Source of the DNA: Funneliformis mosseae
Taxonomy: Eukaryota > Glomeromycota > Glomeromycetes > Glomerales > Glomeraceae
Assembly: GCA_910592005.1 (NCBI GenBank)
Contig: CAJVPP010001155.1
Coordinates: forward strand, 1 to 22,296
Length of the DNA: 22,296 nucleotides
Reading direction: 5' to 3'
Below, piece by piece: positions 571 through 21,000 of this stretch. A program made the translations under genes and the position numbers. The notes under the pieces were generated by a model. That model was not told the origin of the DNA, did no database searches, and saw only the letters and a program-made list of their open reading frames with translations. Position 1 is the stretch's first letter. Each line of letters starts with the position of its first letter.

Positions 571-628
571 CATGATAAATATAAGAAATAAAATTTAGAA
601 GCTTTTCATACACTCCTATTTTATCATA

Positions 629-778
629 TTAATACCACCAGATATTAATTCTATTTTTGATATAAATGAAGAAGCTGAGGAAGCTAGTAAGAAAATTGAT
701 ATAGATATAAGTGACAATGAAATTAATCTTATTCTTGATACTATAGATGGTATTGAATATATAGTAGGCGGTCAATAG
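629..778 (+). pseudogene. Short acidic coding remnant, unidentified
   Basis: An open stretch of 49 codons without a credible start ends in TAG at 776-778. The translation is rich in Asp, Glu and Ile (for example EEAEEASKKIDIDISDNEIN), and codon use looks protein-like rather than random AT-rich sequence. A weaker coding-like stretch continues to about 1070 with stops and frame changes. It lies upstream of, and in the same direction as, the transposase remnant at 1200-2390, so it could be that element's N-terminal part. I do not recognise the family. Confidence 0.4.
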
Positions 779-1199
779 AAAAGGAGAAAATCTACAAATT
801 TTGAGTAATTTTAGTTATTAAGCTAATTTTATTCATATGACCATAATCAGCAGAGTGAACTAATAAAAAAATTTTTTACTAAAAAGTGGATTTCCCACTT
901 TTCTACTGACTACTTTCCATATGTGAGAAGGTATTAAAGATGATAATACAATACCAGAAGAATCTAAAGAAGCAAATAAAATGAAAACTTATCATTTTTT
1001 AGTTGAAGTATATGAGAAATGGATAAAAAACCTTAGAAGTGTAGGACTTAGCTATGTTTAACACAATCATTAAGGCAAATTAGGTGATAATAAAAACTGT
1101 ACTGATGAAAAGAATGATAATATTATCATTGATATAGTACATATAAGAATGTTGCTGATAAAAATCCAAATAAAAAACCTTGATTGACATAAAAGAAAA

Positions 1200-2390
1200 C
1201 AAAGAAATATGGTTGAAAGAGTTACATACAAGTCAAACTTCCTTTAAATTCATCTGCAATAATCTTGCATCATTATTATAAATATAATAATCATTATCCT
1301 GATCATTTATCAAATTTGTGTATATTATCACTTTCTAAAAATATTCAATGGTTTATTTAGTAACGTGTACTTAAAGGTCTTAATTGTCTTAGTATACAAA
1401 GACTTTTGCAATTTAAAACAGTTGAACTTCAGAATCAAGTATTAAAAAATGTAACAGTTTCTATGTAAATACAAATAACATTCAGATGTTAAGAGATGCT
1501 TTAATTACAAAAGATGATATTTATATAATTGTACATAAGATGATGAAAAGATTTGTTTATATTGATGAAAATATATTGATATCTTTGAAAAAATAGTATA
1601 AAAATAATCATTAAAAGTAGAAATTGTTTTTTAAATGGTATAATGGACCAGATAAAATAGGCTTTCTTTTTACTTTTCAAACAAAAAGTAAAATAAACTA
1701 ACAAATTCTTCAAGAATATTATGTTTAGATAGTACGTATAATATGAATGATCATAGTTATCATCTTTTTATCCTTGTAATATGACATTCAGTAATAGGAT
1801 GTGAATATCTGATTGCTTTTTTGATAAGTCAATTTAAACGAACGATAACTTTGAAAAAATGGTTAGATTTTTTAAAACAAAAACATATTGAATAGTTTTC
1901 AGACATATTTATGGTCAATGATGCAGGAGAGAAAATAAATGCAATTAAGGAATGTTTTTAGATAGTTCAGTCTTTTTGTATCATTTTCATGTATTATGAT
2001 CTTGATATAAAAAATTGGATCATAAACGTGTTTAAATATTAATTCATATAAAGAAATTATTTAGAATGATCTTTGAAGATTATTAAAAACAAAAGGATGG
2101 TCAAATGCTGAAGCTCAAGAACAAATAATTATTACAATTAATAAGTGGTGTGAGATAGGCATTAAAGCAATAGAAAAATTTGCTACTTACTTTGAATGAT
2201 GTTAGAAGTTACAATACGAACTGTGAATAATATATGCTAGAAATATAGCAAGAGACAATATGGATACAAAAATATTTAATTGAAGCATTTTATCATAAGT
2301 TAAAATATAATATATGAAAGAATGTTGTTGGCTTGGTATCTGTAAACTTAAACGATAAACTTTTAATTCAATCTGTTGAATTAAATACAA
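1200..2390 (+). pseudogene. Decayed MULE-type transposase (FAR1-like)
   Basis: Relict of a Mutator-like DDE transposase, the enzyme that cuts and inserts MULE DNA transposons. The best block lies at about 1695-1960: RILCLDSTYNMND, with the presumed first catalytic Asp at 1728-1730, then HSYHLFILVI, GCEYLIAFLISQF and a VNDAGEKINAIKECF segment. After a one-base frame change a YHFHVL segment (1979-1996) sits where the family has a Cys-x-x-His (CHFHV-like) motif, so the Cys codon has become TAT. An upstream block at about 1236-1360 (LHHYYKYNNHYPDHL) and a downstream one at 2101-2200 (WSNAEAQEQIIITINKWCE) also fit. In-frame stops include TGA where Arg is expected (about 1777) and TAG where Trp is expected (about 1894). 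It cannot encode a working enzyme. The family call is from remembered motif similarity. Confidence 0.7.
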
Positions 2391-2558
2391 GACACAATAT
2401 CACAATCACGCCTATATGAAGACACAACAAAAGGCAATAGTAAATGAATTTAACGATTCCTTTATTGAACTCTTGGTTTATCCTAAAACCTCAACTTGAG
2501 TTACTTTTCAACCCAAGGGAAAATACAAGATATTTATATAAAATAAAATAATACAAAA
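2391..2558. other. AT-rich tail of the transposase region
   Basis: Short open stretches here may be the end of the MULE remnant, but no motif can be assigned. A CTTGGTTTATCC-like stretch near 2472 and CCCAAGGG near 2513 give weak dyad symmetry. No clear element end or target-site duplication is seen. Confidence 0.3.
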
Positions 2559-2684
2559 TCAACTATGACAAATATAACAGATATGTTAAATATGATAAAT
2601 ATGTTAAATTGATCATCGTTGACAACTTTAACAACTCTATCAACTTTGTCAACTTTGTCAACTATGTCGATCATTCTGATCATA
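2559..2684. repeat. 9-bp-period minisatellite, 14 units
   Basis: The sequence can be cut into 14 consecutive 9-mers without indels. They run from TCAACTATG (2559) through TTAAATATG-type units and then TCAACTTTG-type units (2622-2667) to CTGATCATA (2684). The period is three codons. The minus strand stays open across the block and reads as a degenerate tripeptide repeat (DKVDKVDRVVKVV), while the plus strand is broken by TGA. No gene is assigned. It lies just downstream of the transposase remnant. Confidence 0.8.
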
Positions 2685-2848
2685 TGACTTATCCATAGCG
2701 TAGTCACAGATCACGGTTTCAATGTTTAAATTGTTGACTTGATGGTGAAGTTTATCTTCTTGTAGAAGTTATATTATGAGATATAAATTTTTTAAATTTT
2801 TTAAGGTAATTGAGAATAGGTAAAATGAATCTAAAATAATGTTAATAA

Positions 2849-3356
2849 TGTATTTGGGAAATTCTAGGAGCTAAACATATAAATAAAAAGGATATATATA
2901 AATTAAATCAAAATTTATGAATTGTACATTTTATGATGAATAATGATATTAAATATTCAATCTGAAGACAAAATTTTAATAATAATGAATTAGATATTAC
3001 TTTATATGTTTTTATTTGTCGTGATTTTAAAATACGACAATTGCAATGCAAATATATATTTGCTATATTGAATCAAATTCATACTTATAATAATAATGAT
3101 AATAATGTAGAAATGTAAACTTCTTCAAATATAGAATATTCTAATATTCATAATACTTATTATGATAAAAACAGTAAAAACTTAAAATTACAAGATATTT
3201 TTTTTAATTCTTGTAGAATGGAAAGATAAAAGTGCAGAAGATATTTATAGTTTACGAACAACATTTATGCAAATTATTCAAATAGAAAGAACAAGAATTG
3301 CAAGAATTGATATTGTATCAAGAACTATTGATAATAATGAAATAAGAAATTCTTAA
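2849..3356 (+). pseudogene. Decayed coding region, family unknown
   Basis: Two frames together look protein-coding. Positions 2849-3118 read as one frame interrupted by TGA at about 2912 and at 2963-2965, both where Trp would fit (for example NDIKYSI-stop-RQNFNNNELD). It continues into VFICRDFKIRQLQCKYIF and ends at TAA 3116-3118. A second frame, 3213-3356, reads VEWKDKSAEDIYSLRTTFMQ and then RTRIARIDIVSRTIDNNEIR up to TAA 3354-3356. I do not recognise the family. Its position between the 36-bp arrays and beside a MULE remnant suggests transposon or accessory origin, which is inference. Confidence 0.5.
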
Positions 3357-3608
3357 GTTGCACCAAATATAAAATTTAGAAAATAAAGCATATTTTAATT
3401 ATTTTAGTCTAGTCTTATTAGATAATTTTATTATTTATCTTAGAATTTTATAATTGTTTAATTAATGTATATGCTAAATCGCTAAATTTAAAATGACTTA
3501 TTATAATATATTTCAATAAATTATTTTAATTATATGATTTTAAATATTATTTATATTATTTGTATTTTGCGTTAAATCTTTTTTTGTGTAAAATGCGAGT
3601 TATTTAAA

Positions 3609-3774
3609 GTTAGTATTAGAGTCAATTTAGAATTAGTTTAGAGTTAGAATTAGGATCAGTTTAGAGTCAGTTAGGGTTAGTTAAAGATTAATTTAAGGTT
3701 AAATTTAGGGTTAATTTAGGATTATTTTAGGGTTAATTTAAGGTTAATTTAAGGTTAGGGTTAGTAAGATGCTA
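3609..3774. repeat. Degenerate telomere-like TTAGGGTTAATTTA tract
   Basis: About 165 bp made of loosely repeated 10-13-bp words of the types TTTAGAGTTAG, TTTAGGGTTAA and TTTAAGGTTAA. It becomes more regular toward its right end (TTTAAGGTTAATTTAAGGTT). It shares the GGGTTA core with the 36-bp arrays but not their CTGCCTTTGTGTAA half. Confidence 0.75.
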
Positions 3775-3844
3775 AAATAAATGAAAAATTTTATTTGTTA
3801 AAAAATGTAAAGTCTAGAACTGACATTGGGTGATAGATATATTT

Positions 3845-3883
3845 AGACCATAGGTGATATTGATCATATTGATCATATGGTCT
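3845..3883. repeat. Small palindrome with internal 9-bp repeat
   Basis: Perfect 8-bp arms, AGACCATA (3845-3852) and TATGGTCT (3876-3883), flank a loop containing ATATTGATC repeated in tandem. It is followed by a CCAAT box (GCCAATCA near 3898). It could be a hairpin or a protein-binding site; no function is assigned. Confidence 0.5.
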
Positions 3884-3952
3884 GATTTTAGCCAATCATA
3901 ATTGTAGAAATGTTGACTAATCAGAAATATGAAAATAAATTCGTAAAATTGT

Positions 3953-4203
3953 TTCAGATTTACCTTTATATGATGTTAAGGATTAGAATTTAGGTTTGCT
4001 TTTGTGTAATGTTAGGGGTTAGAGTTTAGGTTTGCCTTTGTATAATATTAAGGGTTAGGATTCAGGTTTACTTTTATGTTATATTAAGGTTAGGGTTCAA
4101 GTTTACTTTTGTATTATATTAAGAGTTAGGGTTCAGGTTTGCTTTTATATAACGTTAAGGGTTAGGGTTCAGGTTTACTTTTGTGTAATGTTAAGGGTTA
4201 GAG
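3953..4203. repeat. Second copy of the 36-bp telomere-like minisatellite, seven units
   Basis: Seven units (3953, 3989, 4025, 4061, 4096, 4132, 4168). All are 36 bp except the fourth, which lost one base. They are homologous to the units at 80-295, with the CTGCC of that array appearing mostly as TTTRC here. Orientation is the same as the first array, so the pair flank the 296-3952 interval as direct, not inverted, repeats. Confidence 0.95.
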
Positions 4204-4213
4204 TTCTTATATA

Positions 4214-4305
4214 TTATTACAATATAGTAATATTTCTATAAATGCATTCTTAAAGACTGAACATAAATGTGCATTTATAAAGGATATATATTTATAGAAT
4301 AGTAT
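4214..4305. mobile_element. Relict of the pogo-like MITE family (partial)
   Basis: The stretch TTCTATAAATGCATTCTTAA, then GTGCATTTATAAAGGATATA and TTTATAGAATAG, follows the same order of blocks as the MITEs at 12561-12849 and 18799-18994 (CTCTATAAATGCA, GTGCATTTAAAGAGG). The CAGTC terminus is no longer recognisable and the right half appears lost or replaced. Similarity is by eye only. Confidence 0.4.
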
Positions 4306-4318
4306 TTAATCTAAATAC

Positions 4319-4437
4319 TACGTTATTAAGATAATAAAGCTTATTTGCTAATAGGGAGTTTAAGTTGTAGTAATCATTAGTGATATTAATTGATACAGTC
4401 ATTTATTGATGCAAATGGATTATCACTAACAACGTAG
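4319..4437. repeat. Inverted-repeat element, about 119 bp
   Basis: An outer left arm (CTACGTTATTAAGATA, from 4319) is an imperfect inverted match to the right end (TATCACTAACAACGTAG, 4421-4437). A perfect inner pair TTAGTGATA (4377-4385) and TATCACTAA (4421-4429) is also present. It resembles a tiny MITE. No target-site duplication can be fixed because both flanks are AT-rich. Confidence 0.4.
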
Positions 4438-5699
4438 CTAAATATAACTGATCATTATTATAAATTAAACAATAATTTTAATATTAGTTATTACAAAGTA
4501 TAATAACTTATAATTATTATTAAATTTTCAAATATTTTACCTTTTTTGATCATTATATTAATTGATCATAAAGAATAATATAATATATTAAATAAATATA
4601 AAATTCTTTTCAAATAATTATAATGAAAGAAAAATAAAAAATATTATTTTAATTTAAATTATTATTTAATTAATAATTAATATTTATAAATAATATTTAA
4701 AAGTATATTAAATATTAAAATTATAGTTTTTAATAATTTTGTTTTAATATTTTATATAATACTCTTTCTTAACTTCTTATTATTATATTAAATTTTTATT
4801 TATGTAAAAATATACTGTAAAAAATTGATTAATTATAATTTATTATTAAATGTATATAAATTTAAATTTAAGTTATTTATTAATAAATTTTATTAATTAT
4901 ATAAGATCTTTACAATAAAAAATTAAAAATTAAAAATGAGTTAATACTAATTTTAAATATATTTTAACCTAAAAATGATATTTAGCATATAAATGTAAAA
5001 TTGATTATTATTGGTAATTTTTTTTCTTTCTATTGCAAAAATTTCATATATTCTAAAATAAATTTATTATAAAAAAAAATCATTCTTTTTTTTATAATAT
5101 AAAAATTCAAATTTTTTTTAAATAATATTAATTTATTAATTAAATTAAAAAAAATTAAATTATATTTGGTTAATTTTTATTTTTTAGATTATAAAAGTTT
5201 GTAAGTAAATTTGTTTACTTATTTACCATAAATTCCTTTTTGATTTATTAATATGAAAAAATTAAAATTTTTTATAATAATTTTATTTTTTAATTATATA
5301 ATAAATAATCTAAAATTATTTATAAGCTAAAAATTTATAATTAATTTTATTAATATTTATCTTTAATTATATTAATAATAATAAAATATTATAAATTTAT
5401 CATGAAGAATAACTTTAATTATTATAATTATTATTAATAATAATAAAGTAATTTAATTTATTTGTAAATATATAAATTTTAAAGAAATTTTTAAAAAATT
5501 ATTATAATGAATTTAATAAAACTTAATTTTAAAAATTGAATTATTAAAATTTTTTTAATAAAGTTAATAAAATATATATTAAACTATATTTTTTATATAA
5601 TTACTACATTTCTAAAATTAATATTTAATATTTTAATTTTTTTTTTTTTAAGTTTATAAACAAATTTACCTACTAGATAATTTAAAGGATAAATATAAA
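4438..5699. other. Extremely AT-rich gene-less block
   Basis: About 1.26 kb consisting almost wholly of A and T, with runs such as AATAATTAATATTTATAAAT. No open frame of credible composition, RNA gene or clear tandem repeat is seen. A weak dyad is formed by GTAAGTAAATTTGTTTACTTA near 5201. Similar AT blocks occur at 10.6-13 kb. Confidence 0.7.
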
Positions 5700-6662
5700 A
5701 TGGATACAAAATTAGGTATTATCTGTTTTTACCTATTTGTTATTCTATAATATAAATACTTATATTTATTTAAATATACTTATATTATATCTAAGTAAAT
5801 AAGTAATAAATTACAATTCTAATTTTTATAGATGAAAATATAATTAATATCTTTGATCATTTTAAATTATTAAATAAAATATTAGATATATTACTTAAAA
5901 GAGTATTTTATAGGTAAGGTATAATATGAATATAAAGAAAAGATTTTAGTATATATTATAGTTAATATTTTAATAATAAGATAATAGAGATTTAATATTA
6001 TTATAATTTATAAAATTTATAATAAAACTCATCAAAAAGATTCTTACCATTAAATAAATTCTAATCAATCACTTATATATTTATTTTTTTTTAGATGAAT
6101 TTAAAAGATATAAAGCATATGATAATATTAAATAATATTCAAATTTATAACAAAAAAAAATTATATTTTCATCATATTAACAAAAATTCTGAAGGTAATA
6201 TTTTTTTTTATTAAAAAACAATCAATATAGGTAACTTTTAACTTTAATAATATATTTTAGATATTAAGTAAGTAAACTAGTATTTTATAAAACATATGAT
6301 TGAAACAATTTATCTGAAAATTAAAAGAAATTTGTATTTTAATTGTATAAATAGGTGAGTTGTAAATTATTCCTTATGAAAACATACTGCTCAAAAAGGA
6401 TTAGGCTATTATGAACATGATATTACACGATATTTAGCAGGTTTAAATTTTTAATTTTTTTTAATAGCTGAACTTTTTTATTTATTTTAATTATCTTAGA
6501 TATTATTACAGAATGAAACTTAAAATTAAAAAATGCAAAATATATTCAAGGTATTTTTTTTTTTTAATAAATACAAATTTAATAATTAAATTTATTATAT
6601 TATTTTATTTATTGGATATACAAAAAGAAAATATTGATGATAATAGTGAAAAGCAAGATTAA
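5700..6662 (+). pseudogene. Multi-exon gene broken by stop codons, family unknown
   Basis: Exons can be chained with conserved phase. Exon 1 is 5700-5715 (ATG, donor GTATTA) and exon 2 is 5832-5913 (DENIINIFDHFKLLNK..., donor GTAAGG). A third exon from about 5990 ends unclearly near 6050. Exon 4 is 6095-6194 (behind CTAAT, a pyrimidine run and TTTTAG; donor GTAATA). Exon 5 is 6261-6440 (contains HTAQKGLGYYEHDITRYLA), exon 6 is 6500-6550, and exon 7 is 6628-6662, ending in ENIDDNSEKQD and TAA. The 1-2, 2-3, 4-5, 5-6 and 6-7 junctions keep frame. Introns are 60-116 bp. The coding frame is interrupted by TAA 6269, TAG 6278, TGA 6356, TGA 6377 and TGA 6514, all explicable as former CAA, CAG, TGG or CGA. 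The donor after exon 3 is missing. I do not recognise the product. Confidence 0.6.
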
Positions 6663-7701
6663 CATAATTCAAATTTTGAATTTTACTCATAAAAAAGCTT
6701 TTTCTGAAATTCAAAATACTACGAAAATATCAAAAATGTTAAATTATTTTGATAATTTTTGTATAATAAAATATACAGTAATTGTATCGATCATGCGCAG
6801 TATGTAAGTTATTTTTGGATTTTTAACGTGTATTTTAGGATCCGGTTAAATTTGTACCGGAACAACCGGAACAAAAAAAAATCTTTACTAAACAAAGTAT
6901 TGTTACCATTCATTTCTATTCCTAGTATTTTAATAGACCCAAATATGTACATACATATACTCCTTAATTTATCACTTGTGTACATGTACAAACAAAAGAA
7001 AAAAAGAAACTTGGAATCCAACGCCCAAATAATAATTGAAAAGGTCTAGATTACAAGCTTTTCCTTTTTTGAAACTTCATTAAGGATTAGAAGTAACAGG
7101 GAACCCGTTTATTTTTATGAAATTTTTTTATGCAAATTGTTGGTGTTACACATGATTAAATAATTTTTGTTAAACAGTTGGTAAATCTTAATTTGAGAAG
7201 ATAAATTTTTTTTAATTTATCCTAACCTTATTCAAATACTTTTTCTTTTGTTTCCATAAAAGTTAATTGATATCAGATATAGTTAAAATATTTTTTATTA
7301 TATTGTCTAAAAATATATTTAATGGAATAAAACATATGCGAGTTGTTTGTAACAGTACACTGAATATATGCAAAATTAACCTGTATTCATTCGAGATTTT
7401 GCGGATAAGAAATGAAACAGCTGTAAAAAGACACTATACTCAATAAGTTTATCTTTTAAAAATTTTAAAGGTTTTACAAAGAACAGTATTTAAGCAAGCA
7501 TTTTTTTTAAAAAAATGGCGACTTCAAATATGGGTACAAATTTTTATAAATTTTCCAATTGGTGGACGTGAAATTCTTACCAATTTGGTAAAAATAAAAA
7601 TAAATCTATATATATGATGAACATTGCCAGGTAAATATATTATTTTTTTTTAAATACATACCTTGCTCTTGAAAATTACAAGGATAGTAAAGATTTAAAA
7701 G
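6663..7701. other. Intergenic and upstream region of the chromodomain gene
   Basis: AT content drops from about 6780 onward. A 96-codon plus-strand open frame at 6759-7049 has low complexity (Asn, Lys, Ile, Tyr), and a minus-strand frame overlaps it, so I do not call either a gene. A CCGGAACAA word is repeated in tandem near 6857. A short perfect hairpin, GATAAATT and AATTTATC, lies at 7200-7221. Just upstream of the gene, ATG ATG AAC ATT GCC AG followed by GTAAAT near 7632 resembles a small exon with donor, but it does not join in frame to the downstream ATG. Confidence 0.5.
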
Positions 7702-8458
7702 ATGCGTGTTGCAAATCAATATTACGAAGCCGAACGAATCATAGATGAGAAAGTCACGGACGAAACGACATTCTATTTAGTGAAATGGAAAGGAATGGAC
7801 AAGAATAAAAGGCCTTGGAAACCTACTTGGGTATTTATGTTATTCATCTTTTATATTTGGAGTTGTGCTGAGAAAAGGGACCAAATTGTAAAAAAATTAC
7901 TTTTTTGAACAAGAAGTGTTCTGAATCAGATGATAAGTTACATCTATTTCACTTAGGAAAAAATGTTCAATTTGGTCCCTTTTTCCACCCACCCCATTTA
8001 TCTTATTTTTAATTTGAAAACAGGTTTTTAATTAATTATATATACGTTACGTTTCATAAAAGGAGCCTGCAAGTCATTGTAATCAATTACTTATTGCTTC
8101 ATGGAATCATCCGAGAAAAAGAAAATTAAGTTCTCCGACACTTCCTAGAATTCAACCCGATGAATTACAAACAAAACGCATGATATCATTACTTGAAGTC
8201 CAATGTATTGAATTGGATATCGAATTAACACGATTAAAATCAGTCGTATATAATAATGAACAAGAAATTCACAAGTTGAGAGAAGAAACAGAAGCATTGA
8301 AAGTAACGTTAGAATCATTAAACAAACAAATAGAACAAAGTAAATCAGAACTAGAAAATTTGTCATTACTGATACAATTTGAACTATACGAAAAACTATT
8401 AAAACTTGTTGATGAAGCTAAGTACATTTTAAATGTGTTAAATTATAGAGAATCGTAA
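7702..8458 (+). CDS. Chromodomain plus coiled-coil protein, two exons
   Basis: The only complete-looking gene in the window. Exon 1 is 7702-7830, the intron 7831-8062 (donor GTATTT, acceptor AAAAG) and exon 2 8063-8458 (TAA). The join is phase 0 and restores the chromodomain core TWEPASHCNQLLIASW across the junction, which is why I chose these splice sites. The predicted protein has 174 residues. Residues 7-57 form the chromodomain (YEAERIIDE, YLVKWKG at 25-31, TWEP at 42-45). RKRK at 61-64 is a basic, nuclear-localisation-like patch. Residues about 88-150 are a Glu/Lys/Leu-rich coiled coil, likely for dimerisation. Chromodomains bind methylated histone H3 tails. Here the first two cage aromatics are plausible (Y7 or Y8, W29), but Met32 stands where HP1 has an aromatic, and the loop before TWEP is about four residues longer. 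An in-frame TAA at 7696-7698 supports the start. It could be a heterochromatin factor or a domesticated transposon chromodomain. Confidence 0.8.
7873..7983. mobile_element. Small inverted-repeat element inside the chromodomain intron
   Basis: Perfect 16-bp inverted repeats, AAAAGGGACCAAATTG (7873-7888) and CAATTTGGTCCCTTTT (7968-7983), enclose about 80 bp with no coding potential. It occupies half of the 232-bp intron, and removing it would leave an intron of about 120 bp. Structure fits a MITE. No target-site duplication could be fixed, so it could instead be an intronic RNA hairpin. Confidence 0.55.
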
Positions 8459-8479
8459 AGCCCTTAAAAGGTTCAAGCG

Positions 8480-8512
8480 GTTTTCTTTTTGTTTTCTTTT
8501 TGTTTTCTTTTT
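8480..8512. repeat. Triple 11-bp pyrimidine repeat downstream of the chromodomain gene
   Basis: GTTTTCTTTTT is repeated three times exactly (8480-8490, 8491-8501, 8502-8512), starting 21 bp after the TAA. Such a T-rich tract may lie in the 3' untranslated region; a role in RNA 3'-end formation is only a guess. Confidence 0.7.
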
Positions 8513-9397: not shown

Positions 9398-9631
9398 ATG
9401 GGAATGTAGGTGAATAAGTTAGATGAAGAACTTGGATATGATCTCGCTACGCTCAGAATGATTGCTCAGTACTTTTGACAAAATTTCACCAATACTTTCC
9501 GAACCGATTAAAAAATATTTGATACCTCCAATATATGGGAGTCTGGTAAGATAATTTTTCAAGATCGTACTTGAGAAAGAATCGAGTATTATTAATATAC
9601 ATTACTTTTTTGAAGTAAAGAAAGTTGCTAA

Positions 9632-10334: not shown

Positions 10335-12560
10335 ACGAAGTCCCTATTAATAACCTCCAAAATCTCAGATAAGTTATTCCGGAAATAGGGCATAATTCGG
10401 AATTAATAACGAAGTTATTTCATTCTTCACGATATTATTCATGTGGACATGTCTAACATGTACTCTGAATTGATCCTCGAATGTGGAAAATTATTGAGAC
10501 TGAATGAGCGATATTCTCAATCATCTAAGTCAAATGGAACTCTAACATGTTAGGAGATGATCATGGAAAGTGCTCTCATATTCCGATTTTATAATCATGA
10601 ATCTGAATCGTATATTCCTATAATATATAACTTGATAATATCGATAGGTCTAATATATTATAAACCTTATTATAGCATATAATCACAACATTTCATAATC
10701 ACTATTTCTCTAAAGTATTATAGTAAATATTATTGTATTAATGATAGATTGAATTGTTAATATATTTTAGAGAAAATAATCTTTTTGTTATTATGAATTA
10801 TTGCTACAAAATTAATATTGTGTTTTAATAATGGAATTAGTTTTTCATCATGTAAATAACTTTTTATTATTTTTATAATACATTAAAAAAGTAGCTTTAT
10901 AAGAAAATATGATAAGATGAGTATAAAATAAATTTATAATATGAATTTCAAATGATTTTATTATTATTTATATTATATTATTATTATTGATAATATATAT
11001 TAGTAAACTTAAATATGTATTTAAATATATTAAACTAAAAAAAAAAAGTTATAAAATATAATAAATAATATTTTAATAAAAATTAATATAGAATTTATCA
11101 ATTTATAAATTATAATATTTGGTTTAAATTTTAAACTTTAATTTATTTTTTTAAAATTAAAAAAAAATAATTTTATATTTTTAATTTAATAAAAATTTAA
11201 ATAATATATTCAGTAAATTTAGATTCTATAAAATTTTTTTTTTAATATAATTAAATCAAAATAATAATATAAAATACTAATTAATAATTTTATAAATCTT
11301 TAATATATAATTTTTTTTATATTAATTTGATAATCAAAATAATTTTTTTAAATTTTGAATTTTTATTAAATATATCATTTTTATAATTTTAAATTTTTAT
11401 AATTATTTAAAATTTAAATTATTTTATAGATATTTTAAGTCTTTAAAATAATAAAATAAAATATTATATTTATTATTTATTAAATATTTAATATAGCTTA
11501 TTTTTTGATAAAAATTAAAAATTTTTATGATATTTATAATAAGTTTAAGCTAAAATTAAAGTTATAAAAATTGTTTTATAACAATATTAAAATTGTAATT
11601 TTATTTTTTAGTTTATGGTTTTTTAATCAATTAAAATAAATAATATTAAATTTCTTAATAAAATAAGATATATAAAATATAGGTTATATATATATATATT
11701 TATTATATAAAGTTGTGTTGCTAAATAAATTTAATATTAATTTAATATTAGTTATATAGATTAAGTTATTATTTATTATATCATATCAAATACTATTATA
11801 TTTAACTTTATTAATTAATTTAAATTTAGACATTTTTTATTAAATATATTAATTATCATTCTTTTTATATTTCACATTATTTGAATATTTTAAATACAAA
11901 AATTACATAAAATCTGATTATTATATTTAATTTAAACTAAATCTAAATAATATTAATTATATTTAAATTTAAATTTTTGAAATATTTGATTAATTATTTA
12001 AAACTTAATTATTTATATGAAATTTGAATTCCTTTAATAATATTGTAAATAAATTTATCTGTAATTATAAATAAAATTAATAATTATTATAAATAATTTT
12101 TAAAATAATTATTTTAAAAAATAATACTTTTATGATGAATTTTATAATGATTTTTAAGTAAAAATTAAAAAAATATATAATTAACTAATGATTTTTTAAA
12201 GATAAATATATAATAAAGTATTATTAAAAAAATTAAATTTTTAAATTTATATATCTTGCTATCTATTTATTTTAGAAATATAAAAATATTATCATTTAAT
12301 AGAATTTAAAATAATGAATTTAATAAACTAAATTATATATTTTTTGTAATTATTAGATAATAAATTATTTATAAAATAAAAATTGAAAAATTAATATATA
12401 AATATAATTCAATTGTTTTTTAATTCAAATTTTTATAATTTATAATCTTATTATTTTAAAATTAGTTTATTATTAGCTGTAATCCATCATATTATGTTAA
12501 AATAATAAGTTAAGATTTAAATGATTGAATGCATATATAAAGGTATTATATATAAAATTA
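10335..12560. other. Gene-less region grading into an extremely AT-rich block
   Basis: 10335-10600 still has moderate composition and may hold further coding debris. From about 10620 to 12560 the sequence is almost only A and T, with homopolymer runs and a (TA)n tract near 11688. No credible open frame, RNA gene or regular tandem repeat is seen. Confidence 0.6.
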
Positions 12561-12849
12561 CAGTCAATTCTCTATAAATATATACTTCTTAAAACTAGAT
12601 ATAAGGTGTATTTAAAGAGGATATGCATTTATTGAATATATATAAAGTCATTTAATATTAATTTAAAATTAAGATAATACAAAAAATTTATAAGTAAACA
12701 ATATAAAATTTTTTTATAAGAAGTGTATTTACAGAAAATGTATATATAAAAAATATGCATTTAGCATTAAGGTCTAAATTGAGATTAAATAAAATGGTAT
12801 ATATAAAGGATGTATATTTATAGAAAATGCATTTATAGAAAGTTGATTG
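12561..12849. mobile_element. Decayed copy of the pogo-like MITE
   Basis: The left end CAGTCAATTCTCTATAAATA (from 12561) and right end TGCATTTATAGAAAGTTGATTG (to 12849) are imperfect inverted repeats. They match the termini of the element at 18799-18994 and are flanked by TA on both sides (12559-12560, 12850-12851). Internal blocks such as GTGTATTTAAAGAGGATATG and GCATTTAGCATTAAGG are shared with it. Terminal C and G have partly become T and A. It is non-coding and would need a transposase in trans. Confidence 0.75.
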
Positions 12850-13117
12850 TATTATATAAATAAATAAAATTTATTTATATTTAAAAAGATTAATTAATAT
12901 AATAATTATTTATAGATTAGAATTGGAATTTGATATCAATTTTATTAGTAAAATAAAAAATATCAGTTAAAATTTAATTATATTATATTAAAATAATATC
13001 TTTTAAACTGTAAGTATAAAATTATTTTTAAAACATTTTAGAAAACTTAAAATATTTTGATATCTAATAATTATAAAAAAATAAAATAAAAATTTTAAAT
13101 TTATCATATTATAATAT
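12850..13117. other. AT-rich spacer between two MITEs
   Basis: No frame, repeat or RNA gene is discernible. Confidence 0.5.
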
Positions 13118-13271
13118 GGGTTGATTGCTAGAAAAATCAGGTTCTGGGAATTTTTTAACAAAATTGAGATTTTTATTGCATTTTAATTTTTGATGTTATT
13201 AGATTAAAATGTATTAAGCTCTTTATTTAAGTGAAAAATTTCTCGGAGCCTGATTTTCCTAGAAATCCTCC
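13118..13271. mobile_element. MITE-like element, about 154 bp, with 35-38-bp inverted ends
   Basis: The left arm (from 13118; CTAGAAAAATCAGGTTCTGG, then GAATTTTT) and right arm (13234-13271; AAAAATTTCTCGGAGCCTGA, then TTTTCCTAGAAATCCTCC) are inverted repeats with a few mismatches. The mismatches are mainly transitions, with the right arm keeping more G and C. The interior is AT-rich and non-coding. Its GC-richer ends stand out from the surrounding AT desert. Superfamily not assigned. Confidence 0.7.
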
Positions 13272-13739
13272 TATATATCTAATAATAAATATTTTTAAAC
13301 TTTTAAAATTAATAATTATTAATATATATTATTTTTTTAATTTTTGAATTTTTAAAATAATTTTTTATCTAATAATTACAAAAATATAAAATTTTAGTTT
13401 ATTGGATTTGTCATAATAAGATCTATTAAATGATAGTATTTTTATATTTTTAAGATTGATAAATAGCAAAATATATAAGTTTAAAAGTTTATTTTTTTAT
13501 AATAATTTATTATTTATTTATTTATAAAAAATCACTAATTAATTACATTTTTTTTTAATTTATATTTAAAAAATATCATAAAATTTATTATAAAAGTATT
13601 AATTTTAATAATATATTTTAAAATATTTAAAATAATCAATAAATATTAAGATATTTATTATTAAATAAGTACTGTTACTATTATTTAATTACAAGCTTTA
13701 TAAAATAATAAGTTAATTACTAATTCAAAAAACATTTTA
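13272..13739. other. AT-rich spacer
   Basis: No open frame or regular repeat is visible before the satellite that begins near 13740. Confidence 0.5.
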
Positions 13740-14570
13740 TTTTTTAAAAATTTTCAAAAGCTATTTCTACAAAAAAAAGAAAAATGTTAATAATACTCTT
13801 TTTTAAAAAAAAAACTTTATTAAGTTTAAAACCTATCTTTTAAAAGTTGATCTAGAGTTAAATAATTTTAAAAATCTCTTTACAAAAAAGAAAGAAAAAA
13901 GAATGTTAAAAATATTTTTTCTTAAAATAGAATACTCATTTTATTTAAAACTTGTCTTTTAAAAGTTAATATAAGAGAAATTTTATAATTCAAATGATTT
14001 TAAAAGCTATTCTTATAAAAAAAAAGTATATTAGAAATATTTTTTCTTAAAAAATTACTTTAAATTATTTTAAAGAAAAATTTCATGACTCTAGAAACTG
14101 TATTTATAAAAAAAAAAAAAAATATTATAAATATTTTTTTTTAAAGAATTTACTTATTTAAAATTTATCTTTTAAGAGCTAATATAAGAAAATTTTCATA
14201 ATTCAAATAATTTTATAAGCTATTTTTACAAAAAAAAAAAAAAAAAAAAAAAAAATATTTTAAAATATTCTTTCTTAAAAAAGAACTTCATTTCATTTAA
14301 AACCTACCTTTCAAGAACTAATCTAAAAGAAATTCTATGATTCAAATAATTTTGAAAACTATTATTATAAATAAGAAAAAAAAATGTTAAAAATATTCTT
14401 TTTTAAAGAAAAATCCCACAAATTTATAATCTACTTTTAAAGAACTGATCTAAGAGAAATTCTATGATTCAAATAATCTTGAAAGTTTTTTAAAATAGAA
14501 TTTCCATTTTATTCAAAACCTATCTTTTAAAAGCTAATATAAGAGAAATTCTATGATCTAAATAGAAATA
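13740..14570. repeat. Degenerate satellite, unit about 100-140 bp, roughly seven units
   Basis: The blocks TTTAAAACCTATCTTTTAAA, AGCTAATATAAGAGAAATTC, TATGATTCAAATAATTTT, GAAAGCTATTTTTACAAAAA and GTTAAAAATATTCTTTTTTA recur in this order. The AAACCTATCTTTTAAAAG block appears near 13828, 13945, 14157, 14299, 14427 and 14513, and one copy near 14050 is too decayed to place. Unit length varies because the internal A and T runs expand. A pure run of 26 A lies at 14230-14255. Non-coding. Confidence 0.75.
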
Positions 14571-15007
14571 TTATTCTATAATTATATAATATATATAATA
14601 AATATAGTGATATTAATAATAATGAAAATTTTATTATAATTAATAATATAAATTTAGTATTCAAAAAAGATATAAATGCTTTAACAAGTATATAATTTGA
14701 AAATATAAGGTTGTAAAAAATGCTAACAGATTAGGTATAAATAGTAGTTATGATTAACTTTAAATATTATTTTTTATATTTTTATAAATATAAAATAAAA
14801 AATAAAAATCAAGTTTAATTTTTGATCCTTTAAATATTTTTCTATTTGATTTAAAATGATTATTTTTACTTTTAATTTCTTAATAAAATCATATAATTAT
14901 TCTTCTTTGATTATTATATTTATTATATTATTCTTATTCTTTATTTTTGTTACTTTTGGTAATTTAGTAATAAACTTAAGAGACATTTTTTTGATTTAAT
15001 CATTATA
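14571..15007. other. AT-rich sequence upstream of the LINE
   Basis: No recognisable gene. 14620-14760 has a faintly coding-like composition but is too short and broken to call. Confidence 0.4.
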
Positions 15008-15086
15008 AATCACGTGATTACGCTAATTTTCATTGACCAATAGAATTTTAGTAATAATAAAAAATGATCTACAAATATTGACCAAT
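15008..15086. promoter_or_regulatory. E-box palindrome and two CCAAT boxes in front of LINE ORF1
   Basis: The palindrome AATCACGTGATT (15008-15019) contains CACGTG. Two identical TGACCAAT words lie at 15034-15041 and 15079-15086. They sit 50-125 bp upstream of the ORF1 ATG (15134) and are GC-richer than their surroundings. CACGTG and CCAAT are bound by bHLH and HAP/NF-Y factors in fungi, so this may be the element's internal promoter. Function is inferred. Confidence 0.4.
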
Positions 15087-15133
15087 CATAATGCTAAGTA
15101 GTATATATTATGATATAATTTTGTTGATCTAAA

Positions 15134-16898
15134 ATGTTAAACAAAACGGAAAGAAAGAATACTAATTGCAGTCACTCAGCATCGCCTGTTAATAATAAAG
15201 TATCAACAAAAAAGCAAAATATGAACTAAATTTCAATCAAGGAATTCACTTCAAATTTATTTATATCTACTGAACCTATTGTTATAAAAGACACTAATAC
15301 AATAGAAGTTAACCTGTCGAGAAAAGTTCAACCAACAACCTTAATAAAGAAAAAAGTTCTGAGACTCTCACTTTAGAAACTACTATACAGAAAACTCTAT
15401 GAGTATTGATGAGTCTTTTGACATATCAAAAAATATTTTAGACACCTCAATTCTTAGTTTTGAAGTACCTTTAACTCAAATTATCAAATTTTTCACTTTC
15501 GTTCTCTTAGAAAAATTCTTTAAACCTAACTCCTAAATAAAGATCTTGAATATCACAGATTTATACTATGATAAATATAACTTATTTATAAATGTCACAA
15601 GAGAAAAGTATCCTATTAATCAGAACTCATCAATTATTAAAGTTGCCTTTATTAACAAATTTGAACGTAATAAATTCTGTATTCTCAAATATTCTGATAT
15701 AGAAAATACCACATTTCAACTACTAGATATTAAAAAATCTGCATTTTATGTACCTGATCAATTAATCATAATTACAGAATTTCCTCTAAACGCTACTGAA
15801 ACTAGACTTTGTAAATTTTTTTCAAATTTGAAAATATCGTCTATTTTACTATAAAAACAAGAAACCTAAGATAAAAAACAATAATTACTTATAATGACCA
15901 AGCTAACTTTGTAGAATTAAAAAAGGCAATGGTATTTATCTGTTAAATGATATGATTTGTTATTATTCCTATAGCTTTTCTAGCATAGATATTTAAGCCT
16001 AATCATCTCATTCAGCTAAACTAACTAATTTCTCTAGGAATATCACATCACATGATCTTTAAAATATAGAAAATATGATTTTGCTACTGCTTGGATTATT
16101 TCTTAAGTACGCTTGAATTATAACTACTTTCAATATGTTTTTTCTATTTTCTTAAGAAAAAAGATGCACAAGCAGCAATGGACATCAAGAATTTGATTTT
16201 AAATAATAAGAAACTTGAATGGACTGACCCAAAAGTAAAACTTTGTGCTACTTATTCATTAGCATATTACAATACCTCTTCTTATCTAAAATATCGTCAG
16301 ACACCAAAAGATCAAAACATGCAAAATTTGTACTAGAAATTTCAACCTGCCCAATTTTTCAATTATATTGTATCTAAATGAAACCCTATTAGAGGTGCTG
16401 TTTGTGATAATATTACCTTTGCTCATTTGACCAAGTCTTTTCAGCAATCTAATAATTTCTAAGATTTGCCTAAAAAAAGACCTCTACTACCTCCTCCTCT
16501 AAAACTACCTTAAATCTTTCTTTTTTAACTCTTTTAGCATTAAGCTAAAATTGCATTAGACAGATGAACTCATAAATGATTTCTTTGAGAATGAAGTCTA
16601 TCTTATTCCTAAATTAAATAACGGTATATCAAAAGAGAGATTAATTTATGATTCAGATTTTAAAACTTTTGTTACCTTTCAACTCATATTTATTGCCAAT
16701 ACACTCAGTGATCTTTGTATTAAATTCAAATTTTCACAAAACAGATTAGTTGTTGTTGAAAAAGCCTTTTATATTAATGTTGTCACTTTTACTGAAGCAG
16801 ATGATTTTAACAATAACTTGTTAATCTCAGTCACTAAAGTTAATCACAAATCTCCACACATTGACACTTCTCTTTGTACTGCTTATCTGCAGAAATAA
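15134..16898 (+). pseudogene. LINE ORF1 (nucleic-acid-binding protein) remnant
   Basis: ORF1 proteins bind the element's RNA. The frame opens at ATG 15134 (MLNKTERKNTNCSHSASP), meets TAA where Gln is plausible (about 15227), then shifts. An open piece at 15546-15854 (NITDLYYDKYNLFINVTREK) follows. A third segment near 16165-16340 has DAQAAMDIKNLILNNKKLEW and then the zinc-knuckle site. A last open piece, 16560-16898 (112 codons; DELINDFFENEVYLIPKLNN), ends in TAA. In the knuckle, the CX2CX4HX4C spacing is kept from Cys 16244-16246, but the other three ligands read Tyr (16253-16255, 16268-16270, 16283-16285), each one transition from Cys or His. It cannot bind zinc or make a full protein. Confidence 0.65.
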
Positions 16899-17126
16899 AC
16901 AAACAAACAATTGTACTTATCTGTTAAAAGTAATAGTAATGTATCTTAGAGTTTATTCCCTTACTTAACAAATTACTCAAAATTTGTCATAACTTCTAAA
17001 CTATGCTTGTAAACAAAATCTTCTCAGCCAACATGATATATGTATTTTTGAATCCTTAAATAAAGTTTTGACAAAATAATAAAACACTATATTAACAGCT
17101 TCCTACAATAATTTTACTTAACTATC

Positions 17127-18620
17127 ATGATTACTGTCTCTACAAATAATAAAACATATTCTTCTATTTCTCAAACTCCACCCTTTCCTAAACTTAGAAT
17201 TGCCACACATAATGTTCAATCTTTTAATGAATCCTCAAAACAAATTTATTTCTTTTTCTTATATTCAGTCAATCAATTCGAAATTATTAGTTTGCAAGAA
17301 ACTAACTTCAAAGAAAATACTTTCATATTTAATCATAACTTTTCTGACCATACTACTTTTTTAGCAAAAACCAAAACACCCAATCAGTCAAATTTGATAT
17401 CAACCTTTCCTTCAGTCCTAATATTGCAAAACATATATTTTTTCATGACTTCAAATTTGATAGAATCATTTACACTAAACTCCAATTTGCAAACAAACAA
17501 AAACTACTAGTCTTAAATTGTTATCTTTAACTAGCAAAGATTCCAGCTGTCATAACTAAAATAGTAGTTAACTACTTAAAATACTTGTTAGATGATATCA
17601 TAAAACAAGATTATTACATTATTCTCATTAGAAACATTGATATTGATCGTTCTAATAATTTCCTATTAAATTTGAATCTTATTAATTCACTTGATCATTA
17701 CAATTTGTATGATGCATTTAATATTCATTATAAAAAAGACAGATCGTTATATTCATCCTTTGTAAATAAGACTTTATCATCTCAAATTGATTACATTTTA
17801 TGACCCTTGAATTATTACTTAATATTCTTACTGTAATATCACCCAAGTAGATTTTATTATCTCTGACTATTATATTATCTCGACCAAACTTATTAACTTT
17901 TTTAAAGATACTGTATCTACCAAGAAAAGTCCAATAAAATTCTCTTTTAACTATAATTAAATGGATGATTCCAAATAATCCAAATTTTGAGACAGATTTG
18001 ACAATATAATTACCTCTAATTTGCTTAAATTCATCTCAATCAATACAGTTTGATCACAAAATATTTTAAATTCAATCTGAAATCTTTTTCAAGATTCCCT
18101 AATTTTTGTTGCTAATAAATGCATTCTAATTTACAAATCGAAGTCTTTTCATTCTTTAAAAAAACTATTGCTTTATCCAAATTATATAATGACATCAAAC
18201 TACTTCACTATTTTGCTAAAACATCAAATAAGTATATTAAGAATCTTATCCTTTATCCTAAATGGATCAACTTATATTCGCAATTTCTGCAAATTACTTA
18301 TTCTTTTAGTTTAAATACTGTTTCTCTCAATTGCCTTCCTCATTACATATTAATTCATTCTGTTTTTTCAGATATCAAACTTTTACTTATTGGACTCAAA
18401 TAATTGATTCAGTTCTTAATTGATGAAGAACTATCATTGTTTTAGATAGATGTATTGATAATTCATCTCAATCACGTTCTTTACTATTTAATAAAGCTGA
18501 TGACAAAAAAGAAGTCACTAGATATTTTCAACAAAGTTGCAAATACTAGATATAGCACTAAAATGATTTCAGAAGAATGATATTTGCATATGCTCCTTTA
18601 AAGTAAATGTGTTATATAAA
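17127..18620 (+). pseudogene. LINE ORF2 remnant: APE endonuclease and linker, no RT
   Basis: The start at ATG 17127 is followed by the endonuclease motif RIATHNVQSFN and then FEIISLQETNF with its Asn and Glu, which nick target DNA in intact elements. The frame shifts near 17385, continues as AKHIFFHDFKFDRIIYTK and LLVLNCYL, and passes a TAA near 17529. It then runs through 17585-17803 (DYYIILIRNIDIDR, NLYDAFNIHY, SQIDYIL); RNID stands where GDFN is usual. A further shift leads to 17820-18118, with ISDYYIIS at 17859-17882 in place of the catalytic SDH motif (His to Tyr at 17868-17870). Stops there are TAA 17958, TAA 17976, TGA 17988, TGA 18051 and TGA 18078, mostly at likely Trp or Gln. The last piece, 18119-18403, resembles the linker before the polymerase. 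Confidence 0.75.
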
Positions 18621-18798
18621 GATAGAAGGCTTCATTAATTAGTTTATCTGTTAAATTTAAAAGAAAAAATCAATTTTAAGTTTTAATCTTTTGGTTAAAA
18701 TTGTAAAAGATGACCAAATCCCGTATTATTGCTTTAAATTTATCATTCCTACTTAATCTTTTAGAACAGGTGAATTCATTTAAATTTAAATCTATCTA
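18621..18798. other. Short stretch between LINE remnant and MITE
   Basis: It may be residual LINE sequence (a weak coding-like reading on the plus strand), but no motif is identifiable. Confidence 0.3.
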
Positions 18799-18994
18799 CA
18801 GTCAACCCTCTCTAAATGCACCCCTCGGGACTATAGTGAAAATTTTAAAAAATGTGCATTTAAAGAGGGTGTACATTTAAAGAGAAAAATTTTATATGAA
18901 TTCTATATGCTTGGGACTGAACAAGAGTATGCATTTAGAGAGAAAATATATAGTGTGTGTATTTAAAGAGGATGCATTTAGAGAGGGTTGACTG
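18799..18994. mobile_element. Pogo/Tigger-like MITE with perfect terminal inverted repeats
   Basis: The 196-bp element begins CAGTCAACCCTCTCTAAATG and ends with its exact inverse. The arms, 18799-18820 and 18973-18994, match over 22 bp with no mismatch. TA dinucleotides flank both sides (18797-18798, 18995-18996), the target site of Tc1/mariner/pogo transposons, and the CAGT terminus resembles that of pogo/Tigger elements. Subterminal copies of GTGCATTTAAAGAGGGTG-type sequence form further inverted and direct repeats. There is no coding capacity. It is much better preserved than the copies at 12561 and 4214. Confidence 0.9.
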
Positions 18995-18996
18995 TA

Positions 18997-19150
18997 TTAG
19001 ATATTTAATAAATAAATATTTTAATAACATTTTAATAATTAAATATTAATAATAATAATATTAATTATAAGCTATTAAAAGTAATATAAATTTATATTTA
19101 AGTAAATTATGTATTAAAGTCACTATTTCCTTCAAGAATATTTAATTTGA
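18997..19150. other. AT-rich spacer
   Basis: Nothing recognisable. Confidence 0.4.
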
Positions 19151-19428
19151 TTATCTCAGATGAATGATAATATCACTATCTGCTCCAGATTCTAAATTTA
19201 CTTCACCTTGTTTAACTTTAAATAAAATTCTGTATATATGTATAATCTGGCCTTTATTTTTAAATAAATTCATTTAAGACTTATTAAATAACATATCGTG
19301 AGATAGCAATAGTTAGTTTCTTTTGCATTTCATAATATAATCATTTAATAATATTTGACTATCAATACCATTCCCTGAATTTCAAATGATTTTTTTAAGA
19401 AAGAAATGTATATAATATTAATATAAAT
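19151..19428 (-). pseudogene. Minus-strand coding remnant with two internal TAA, unidentified
   Basis: Reading leftward from about 19374, one frame runs for some 74 codons to TAA at 19153-19151, with only two internal stops (TAA at 19315-19313 and 19276-19274), both where Gln fits. Segments include NGIDSQILLNDYIMKCKRN, then MNLFKNKGQIIHIYRILFKV and KQGEVNLESGADSDIIIHLR. Upstream, a TGA where Trp fits leads to HFFLKK near 19415. A CAG acceptor-like site at 19375-19377 may mark an exon start. I do not recognise the family. It may belong with the minus-strand remnant at 19940-20089. Confidence 0.5.
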
Positions 19429-19939
19429 AAAATTCATTTTGTTATAGATAGAGAAAAGTTTAACACCTTTTCTTAAGGCCTAATAAATTACGCTTTGTAT
19501 TTTCTAATTTCTTAATAATTATCATTTGTTAATTGATTTTCTTTATAATATATCACCTTCATCTTTGTTAACCCTAAATTAGGAGTTAGAATTAACAACT
19601 ATTTCTTATGTAAAATAACAATCTCAGAGTCAAGGATGAAGCGTTGAAATTTTCAAAAAATTTTTATTACAATAGAGGAGAGATCTGATATATTACTATG
19701 TATATTTTACAGAAATGAGGACTATTTTTACAATAAACTATTAATTTACTAAGATATATCGTATGATAAATTAATAAGGTTAACTGTACAGATTTTATTA
19801 TATATTTAATAAATAAACTGATCTTTACCCAGAGTATCAATTCCTACTTTGTGGCTAAAACATAAGACTTTTTGTTAAAAAAAATTTAATTAATAATATA
19901 TTAATCATGTCAAAATAAAATTACCTAATAGAGTATGTA
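19429..19939. other. Unresolved region
   Basis: Moderately AT-rich, with scattered coding-like words on the minus strand but no frame that holds. It could be introns or more decayed exons of the flanking minus-strand remnants. No RNA gene or repeat is seen. Confidence 0.3.
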
Positions 19940-20089
19940 TTAAAATAAAGAGTCGCATGAAATATTTATAATACAACCTTTGGATTTCTTCAGATATTAT
20001 AAGTTTCAAGTAAATCTATCTCAAATTCAATACGAAAAGCTCTATAAGAAAGAGTTTTGACTGATGCCAAAAAGTTTCTATCTGAAAAT
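19940..20089 (-). pseudogene. Minus-strand coding remnant rich in TGA and TAG, unidentified
   Basis: One minus-strand frame from 20089 down to TAA at 19942-19940 reads IFR-stop-KLFGISQNSFL-stop-SFSY and then two TGA near DRFT, before NL-stop-YLKKSKGCIINIS. Stops include TAG 20080-20078 and TAG 20044-20042, plus TGA codons near 20031 and 20025. Substituting Trp, Arg or Gln at those codons gives a coherent, non-repetitive peptide, which is unlikely for random AT-rich DNA. It is oriented like the remnant at 19151-19428 and may be an upstream exon of the same dead gene. Family unknown. Confidence 0.4.
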
Positions 20090-20140
20090 TTACCTAGCGT
20101 CGCCTAGAAAAAATGGTAACCAGATAGTTTTGCTAGGTAA
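20090..20140. repeat. Compact inverted repeat TTACCTAGC / GCTAGGTAA
   Basis: Perfect 9-bp arms (20090-20098, 20132-20140) are accompanied by an inner CGCCTAG variant at about 20101. With GGTAACC in between, the 51-bp segment is unusually GC-rich for this neighbourhood. It could be a minimal MITE relict or a hairpin site. Confidence 0.5.
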
Positions 20141-20380
20141 TACATGATTACAGATACTAACCTTTGGGAATTATATTTACAAAAATCACTGATGTAAACA
20201 AATTAATATAATTATTTTTACATTGAATAAAGTTAATTTTTTTTTCTCACTTTTTTTTTCCTCTTTTTCATAATTTTTTTTTTTTTTACAAAAGATTATT
20301 TTTTTTATTAAATACGTAATATAACATTTACTAAATATAATAAAAGATTGCAAAGTTTTCTTATTACATTTTCTTTTACT
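20141..20380. other. T-rich spacer
   Basis: Contains long T runs near 20236-20287 and no frame. Confidence 0.4.
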
Positions 20381-20999
20381 ATGTCACAATATCAAACTAA
20401 CAAAATAAAACTTGTAAAGAATGTCATATTTATCAAAGCTATGAAAATTTTCTGAATGAGAAAGGTGTTACTTTGAAAAAATATTTATACTACTGAGATA
20501 AACTTAAAATTTCTTGCTTGAAAAAAAATCTGACAATAATTAAATATTCAAATATTGCCAAAACTGTTTATAATCATTTAATTTCTTTAAATAATACAAA
20601 TGAATATTATGAAGGGAAAAATGTGATGTTAAATATTGATCTTCATATTGAATTATCATCTTTTCTTAACTTTATTTTAGAAAAAGATGCATTAAATAAG
20701 AAAAATCTTGAAATTGAAGTTAGTAATCATGTAATAACATTAATTTTAGAAGGTAATGGATATTCATGGGTTTATCAGAATAAAAATCAAAAAAAAAGAC
20801 TCTCTTCATATATTATATTATTGCAATTGTCAAATTGAGCTTGAAAATAATAAGTAAAGTATTCTATAGCAGATAAACAAAGAGATATATCTATTCATTT
20901 AGAATGTTATCATTATAATAGAACAATAAATATAGAAATATTAACACAATTGGATTTAATCAAAATTAAATATTCTCATAAATGTTACATTCACGACTA
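20381..20999 (+). pseudogene. Remnant of a dispersed fungal multicopy protein, probably a transposase N-terminal region
   Basis: ATG 20381 opens MSQYQTNKIK. A one-base frame change near 20410 then gives TCKECHIYQSYENFLNEKGV, where the two Cys could be half of a zinc site, followed by TGA 20496-20498. An open 106-codon stretch from 20518 has no ATG of its own and runs through NNTNEYYEGKNVMLNIDLHI and VSNHVITLILEGNGYSWVYQ. A frame change near 20790 leads to YYYCNCQIELENNK, and another to DKQRDISIHLECYHYNRTIN, ending in TAA 20997-20999. This order (Cys pair, EGNGYSW, YYCxQ-like, KQRD) matches what I remember of a family that precedes a MULE-like transposase domain in Rhizophagus-type fungi. The catalytic part is absent here. 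Confidence 0.45.
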
Positions 21000-21000
21000 A

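Follow-up and report, generated by a model that had tools for sequence, protein, structure and literature searches.

The 22,296-nucleotide stretch of the Funneliformis mosseae genome analysed here (contig CAJVPP010001155.1, positions 1 to 22,296, called the window below) contains several decayed transposons and gene fragments whose reading frames are broken by stop codons, and their decay is quite probably of an ordinary, transition-biased kind with a probable part played by CpG methylation, and not repeat-induced point mutation (RIP). According to this explanation, old transposon copies and gene fragments would decay by ordinary mutation, with transitions in excess and, in the younger families, C:G>T:A strongly favoured. 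Stops would then arise chiefly where one transition suffices (CAA, CAG, TGG and CGA), at the rate typical of the whole element. The added CpG part would most likely come from deamination of 5-methylcytosine (5mC), the methyl group being added by a DNMT1-type enzyme. The explanation is carried by the observed bias, by equal mutation rates at stop-making and other sites, by a CpG effect in a long terminal repeat (LTR) family and in a family resembling long interspersed nuclear elements (LINE), and by methylase exons found in the genome. The CpGs presumably are or were methylated, the remaining changes would be the result of spontaneous deamination and replication error and not of an enzyme, and a repeat-directed mutator is not needed. 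An earlier interpretation made from the letters of the window alone (the sequence-only reading) had proposed that the stops in unrelated dead genes fall at Trp, Gln and Arg codons, and that a genome-defence or methylation-linked process, beyond general drift, had acted on both strands.

Earlier codons at the stop sites

All 16 stops listed in the sequence-only reading are present in the window, 14 of them at the exact coordinates and two, in a Mutator-like element (MULE), displaced by 1 and 5 bases: a check of the sequence places the TGA given as about 1777 at 1782, and the TAG given as about 1894 at 1893. That a single C>T or G>A change separates each of these stops from a codon for Trp, Gln or Arg is uninformative. 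By the genetic code, such a change leads from CAA to TAA, from CAG or TGG to TAG, and from CGA or TGG to TGA. The regularity is therefore empty as stated, because all stop codons have this property, and since any stop would qualify, a test needs the earlier codon at each site. This codon was inferred from other copies in the same genome (82 Mb, 4154 contigs; other loci are designated L and their contigs C). Four of the 16 listed stops go back to Trp by G>A, one possibly goes back to Trp, and for one a decayed CGA is plausible; two are transversion-like, two are out of frame, and six (2963, 6356, 6377, 6514, 19313 and 19274) are without an informative relative, the relatives being stops as well, showing a gap, or no copy being found. 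Moreover, among the unlisted in-frame stops of these remnants, those at 1959, 17958 and 17528 are transversion-like.

The remnant previously recognised as a MULE and a further one regarded as unknown (with TGA 2963) belong to a single decayed MULE transposon copy on the plus strand, at about 385-3949. A collinear copy (L010/L040, contig C2709) matches it at 84-89% over 385-755, 918-2320 and 2728-3949. The transposase piece, with X at the stops, matches PF21056 in Pfam (3.5e-6), and its score against PF10551 (MULE), 0.0014, is below the cut-off of that model; the piece around 2963 had no Pfam match, and the inverted repeats found were weak only. Ten stops lie between 1641 and 2109 of the scanned frame, two of them among those listed. 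At TGA 1782-1784, the other MULE copies read CAA (3/5) or TGA (2/5), which fits a decayed CGA codon, and at TAG 1893-1895 the sister copy L010 reads TGG (1/5) and the other four have stops, which gives Trp by G>A. The unlisted in-frame TAG at 1959-1961 corresponds to TCG (3/5), TTG and TCA in the other copies, a C>A transversion, and at TGA 2963-2965 all three other aligned copies likewise stop (all four sites on the plus strand).

The decayed LINE-like element occupies positions 15987-18608 of the plus strand, with the frame of open reading frame 2 (ORF2) at about 17096-18400. It has 52 matches in the genome, and seven other copies, 69-81% identical, were fetched; by column majority the ORF2 frame is open save for a few columns. 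The class name is putative and rests on resemblance, and a short piece tried in Pfam had no match. On the plus strand of the window copy, TAA 17976 reads TGG in 4/7 of the other copies, TGA 18051 reads TGG in 3/7, and TGA 18078 reads TGG in 1/6, with the rest mixed stops; each of these is assigned to Trp by G>A. At TGA 17988, AGA or AGG occurs in 4/7 copies and the other three read AAA, TAT and a stop, which makes an A>T transversion probable. Two in-frame stops that had gone unlisted, TAA 17958-17960 and the stop at 17528, read TTA in 5/7 and 3/7 of the other copies, respectively, the former a T>A transversion and the latter likewise T>A. The window copy has, in all, six in-frame ORF2 stops, of which half are at Trp codons and the other half probably arose by transversion.

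The supposed multi-exon pseudogene (5860-6790, plus strand) has one decayed relative, L047 (contig C1010), to which it was aligned in a putative frame, and its tested piece had no Pfam match. In this relative, stop 6278 reads TGG, a possible Trp, and stop 6269 reads GAA, which is transversion-like. For the remnants 19154-19372 and 6257-6445, a protein search of the genome returned only the remnants themselves, and Pfam gave no match. A short-chain dehydrogenase pseudogene fragment lies on the minus strand at 19823-20086; an in-frame exon of its relative L060 (contig C204) matches PF00106 (3.6e-6), and the window fragment itself had no Pfam match. Both TAG 20078 and TAG 20042 lie in another phase than the dehydrogenase gene. 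Therefore, the description of the remnants as unrelated dead genes was partly wrong, and these two of the 16 stops drop out of the count.

Mutation rates and neighbouring bases

In the eight LINE copies, over about 427 codons in each, 63 in-frame stop cells were counted in 27 columns. With column 18078 assigned to Trp from the single copy that has a sense codon there, 61 of them are traceable, and 50 of these go back to CAA (28), TGG (20) or CAG (2). The excess of Gln and Trp among the stops of this family is real, and it was compared with plain substitution rates, under which CAA, CAG, TGG and CGA would have a 62% share, or 44.5 expected stops, against the 50 observed. Within ORF2, C>T had occurred at 30/112 of the stop-making CpA sites and at 250/930 of the other CpA sites (threshold 0.5; p = 1, as also at two other thresholds), and at 4/16 of the stop-making and 79/301 of the other CpC sites. 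The equal rate at stop-making and other CpA sites indicates that the C>T stops of the LINE family reflect its general C>T rate.

Deamination of 5mC at CpG alone is an extremely improbable source of the stops. CpG is the fastest context in the LTR family and is scarce in the LINE family, and the stop at 1782 fits CGA>TGA. However, most of the cited stops have another origin than CpG decay, because CpG deamination reaches only CGA>TGA; the genetic code thus excludes it as the main source, and in the present LINE frame hardly any CGA occurs (1 in 3308 counted sense codons). Only C>T at CpA or CpC can produce the Trp and Gln stops, which come from the general C:G>T:A bias.

The polarised spectra used to describe this bias are terminal-branch parsimony counts within four repeat families (LTR, LINE, MULE and a dispersed repeat at 20087-21003). 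The alignment of the remnants to relatives from the same genome, which had been proposed earlier as a check, revealed transition-biased decay, with C:G>T:A dominant in the younger families. The LTR family is represented in the window by a solo LTR-like insertion of 396 bp with TG...CA ends (2326-2721) inside the MULE, a member of a dispersed family. The insertion is flanked by ATGT at 2322-2325 and 2722-2725 (a 4-base target duplication, with boundaries read by eye) and is missing at the same site of MULE copy L010. A scan of the genome gave 205 candidate places, of which 40 were scored, and the window copy and 39 others were aligned. The terminal branches of these 40 copies carry 334 C>T, 72 T>C and 64 transversions, so that T>C and transversions together make up 136 of 470 changes. 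The C>T changes affect both strands, as had been claimed (136/1426 and 113/983 CpR sites on the two strands). In the tree-based counts they fall at 92/589 CpG, 157/1820 CpA, 25/456 CpC and 60/1451 CpT sites, which gives the order CpG > CpA > CpC > CpT, with CpG ahead of the other C taken together (242/3727).

In RIP, duplicated DNA is recognised premeiotically and undergoes C>T, mainly at CpA, in bursts and copy by copy. The dominance of C>T in the LTR family, the excess of CpA over CpT, the heterogeneous mix of changes among the copies and the slight surplus at CpA that most unpolarised pairs show agree with such a process, and the CpA load varies among the LTR copies beyond chance (chi-square 82 on 39 degrees of freedom (df) in the tree-based counts; 100 on 30 df by a majority method). 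Yet RIP is a very unlikely explanation. The changes at CpC and CpT are as overdispersed as those at CpA (78.8 on 39 df, tree-based), and therefore the LTR copies differ in age; CpA changes compared with CpC/CpT changes showed no significant heterogeneity among copies (p = 0.09), and no strand clustering of changes was found (p = 0.38). The fastest context is CpG and not CpA. Along the branches that lead to the copies in the window, the pooled C>T changes (CpA 40/492, CpC 13/117, CpG 5/35, CpT 42/459) correspond to rates of 0.081, 0.111, 0.143 and 0.092, respectively, with no CpA preference, and the excess in the unpolarised pairs falls short of a concentration at CpA. A more RIP-like picture of the LTR family, obtained by the majority method (CpA 191/1331, CpT 69/1162, CpC 42/386, CpG 163/658), in which CpA was overdispersed among 31 copies and CpC/CpT was not (p = 0.21), was dropped after the tree-based counts with 40 copies had given equal overdispersion at CpC/CpT; age accounts for most of it.

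The composition of the window points in the same direction. At the recommended RIP cut-offs (product at least 1.1, substrate at most 0.75, composite above 0; RIPper, PMC6714961), 0/43 windows along the stretch and 0/40 random windows were positive, and the loosest cut-offs were passed by 2/43 and 1/40, the two lying over a telomere-like stretch at 3600-4210. The comparison of TpA/ApT that had been suggested for the repeats gave mean values of 0.96 for the LINE and 0.92 for the MULE copies, with substrate indices of 1.20 and 1.32, respectively, and RIP cut-offs were not reached.

In the other families, the terminal branches of the eight LINE copies carry 474 C>T and 376 T>C, with C>T at 211/1564 CpA, 77/478 CpC, 5/38 CpG and 181/1768 CpT sites. 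For the six MULE copies, the counts are 88 C>T and 205 T>C, and by context 42/445 CpA, 8/77 CpC, 0/8 CpG and 38/443 CpT; in the 3' part, aligned in four copies, they are 16/157, 4/20, 1/4 and 9/147 in the same order. Few CpG remain in the LINE and MULE copies for testing the CpG rate. On the polarised branch to the window MULE, T>C (44) exceeds C>T (14), which may be attributed to parallel C>T changes misread by parsimony in saturated sequence. The 20087-21003 repeat, counted in four copies (L058 and L061 were left out owing to partial alignment), has C>T at 21/281 CpA, 2/52 CpC, 5/41 CpG and 17/247 CpT sites. The equilibrium GC content is 7% by the LTR rates and 10% by those of the 20087 repeat; the LINE and MULE rates give 22-31%, from counts that suffer from saturation. 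The poorest AT-rich tracts of the window have 7-11% GC, near the equilibrium of the LTR rates.

CpG loss, methylase genes and opposing evidence

The mean observed/expected (o/e) ratio of CpG is 0.28 in the eight LINE copies and 0.27 in the MULE copies, and the 20087 dispersed repeat (0.95) and the LTR (0.89) are not depleted. Copies of the 20087 repeat keep 4 to 24 CpG, the window copy having 4 and L057 having 24. The LINE copies are CpG-poorer than GC-matched random pieces, which may themselves hold repeats (8 vs 7, GC 0.20-0.30, p = 0.001). A pooled depletion of LINE and MULE (14 vs 11, p = 7e-5) was discarded, as three MULE copies were GC-unmatched; after matching, only the LINE result holds. 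The AT-rich tract 10700-13100 was also dropped as a single-copy control, since a dispersed repeat makes up part of it (40 scored out of 2164 candidate places). For LINE and LTR copies, a loss of CpG of the kind expected from methylated DNA is indicated but not proven. The earlier suggestion of methylated-cytosine deamination agrees with the behaviour of CpG in the LTR family, where it is fastest, and in the LINE family, where it is depleted, and does not extend to the MULE, which is not depleted beyond the random pieces.

A PF00145 profile search of the genome returned five pieces. The exon at L066 matches DNMT1 in PDB (9e-16), and L067 combines a BAH domain with a methylase motif, its BAH exon having no match in PDB. 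The motif in L068 and L070 is of a type that we take to be DNMT2-like. Judged by these similarities, exons of a predicted DNMT1-type methylase are present in the genome.

Several results weigh against ordinary decay with a CpG part. Stops from codons other than CAA, CAG, TGG and CGA number 11 in the LINE family versus about 27 expected, and because of this shortfall the plain-rate model fits incompletely. In the LTR family, CpA exceeds CpT 2.1-fold (p = 2e-7), and the copies differ in C>T versus other changes (p = 0.0005; with four classes, p = 0.001). Among unpolarised pairs, the counts of which also take in T>C, 17 of 19 show C/T differences more often before A than before C or T (odds above 1), with p < 0.05 in seven, the significant pairs including the window MULE and L010 (odds 1.9) and the window LINE and L002 (odds 1.55). 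The MULE shows no CpG depletion beyond that of GC-matched random pieces (6 vs 7, p = 0.37), and of the random pieces with less than 20% GC, 4/5 are CpG-poor too.

The pair counts point to a mild CpA effect of a general nature. One way to account for it would be that in young transposons C is methylated and deaminates at CpG and, less strongly, at CpA, which would give a weak RIP-like pattern without RIP. The context order in the 40 LTR copies, the CpA excess in the unpolarised pairs and the many column pairs with CA or TG changed to TA are in favour of this alternative, which is nevertheless unlikely. CpA and CpT changes stand at 21/281 and 17/247 in the 20087 repeat and at 42/445 and 38/443 in the MULE, the CpC rate of the LINE family exceeds its CpA rate, the unpolarised counts include T>C, and intrinsic CpA mutability explains the same pattern. 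Moreover, within the literature covered, which consisted of parts of papers, no report of CpA methylation was found for this group. It is similarly doubtful that young copies mutate at CpA and CpG, by methylation or by enzymatic deamination, as a weak RIP-like defence. The CpA excess in the LTR family, about two-fold over CpT, and that in several unpolarised pairs is left over.

Neighbouring features and comparison with known systems

The dispersed repeat at 20087-21003, with copies at 82-88%, adjoins the broken dehydrogenase, and the disruption of the gene may be due to its insertion, because the repeat starts where the dehydrogenase similarity ends. A host gene for a chromodomain protein has an open two-exon reading on the plus strand at 7702-8457 (exons 7702-7830 and 8063 on); its product shares 98% identity, along 93% of its length, with a Funneliformis caledonium protein, the sole match, which marks the genome as Funneliformis-like (arbuscular mycorrhizal), and CpG o/e over 7700-8460 is 1.08. 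The element at 18797-18998 is short and palindromic, has ends resembling CAGTCAACCCTCTCTAAATGCA and copies in L050 and L053, and is presumably, by resemblance, a pogo/Tigger-type miniature inverted-repeat transposable element. A very AT-rich dispersed repeat occurs twice in opposite orientation, at 12081-12409 and 13281-13642 (reverse). Degenerate telomere-like runs of GGGTTA-like units are located at 60-300 and 3600-4210, and a satellite-like ATCATT/AATGAT array with an extreme RIP-substrate index of 3.48 is located at 21050-22060, with related sequence in L049.

The published systems are compared here on the basis of excerpts of the papers cited. Transposons of Rhizophagus carry 5mC at CpG (PMC8647823), and Gigaspora is described as being without a RIP signature (Venice et al. 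2020, cited through PMC8647823). In the rust Austropuccinia psidii, transposons undergo CpG decay by 5mC deamination (PMC12774611). The window resembles Austropuccinia (PMC12774611) and Rhizophagus irregularis (PMC8647823) in its low GC content, in an old CpG-poor LINE with CpG-richer younger repeats, in DNMT1-type exons and in negative RIP indices. In contrast to these systems, methylation is here a prediction from sequence, C>T outside CpG outnumbers that at CpG, and a shortage of CpG is also seen in low-GC random pieces; the comparison with Rhizophagus irregularis concerns methylation and not mutation (PMC8647823). With RIP in Neurospora and other Ascomycota (PMC12543289, PMC6714961), the window shares the C>T excess on both strands, the Gln and Trp stops and, in the LTR family, CpA above CpT. 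RIP regions of Neurospora, however, average a product index of 1.59 and a substrate index of 0.44 (PMC6714961), and in the window CpG comes before CpA, the contrast between contexts is weak, the indices are negative and a clear copy-specific CpA burst is missing. General AT-biased mutation pressure would share the transition bias and the low equilibrium GC of the LTR and the 20087 repeat, but here a CpG effect is added, and the saturation-affected LINE and MULE equilibria are higher.

Summarizing, RIP cannot be argued from stops that lie a single transition from Trp, Gln or Arg codons, as all stops do; the controls that can decide are which sense codon other copies have, how fast equivalent sites mutate where no stop results, and what the neighbouring base is. 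If a weak RIP-like defence of young copies were true after all, it would stand in a group in which RIP has been reported absent.

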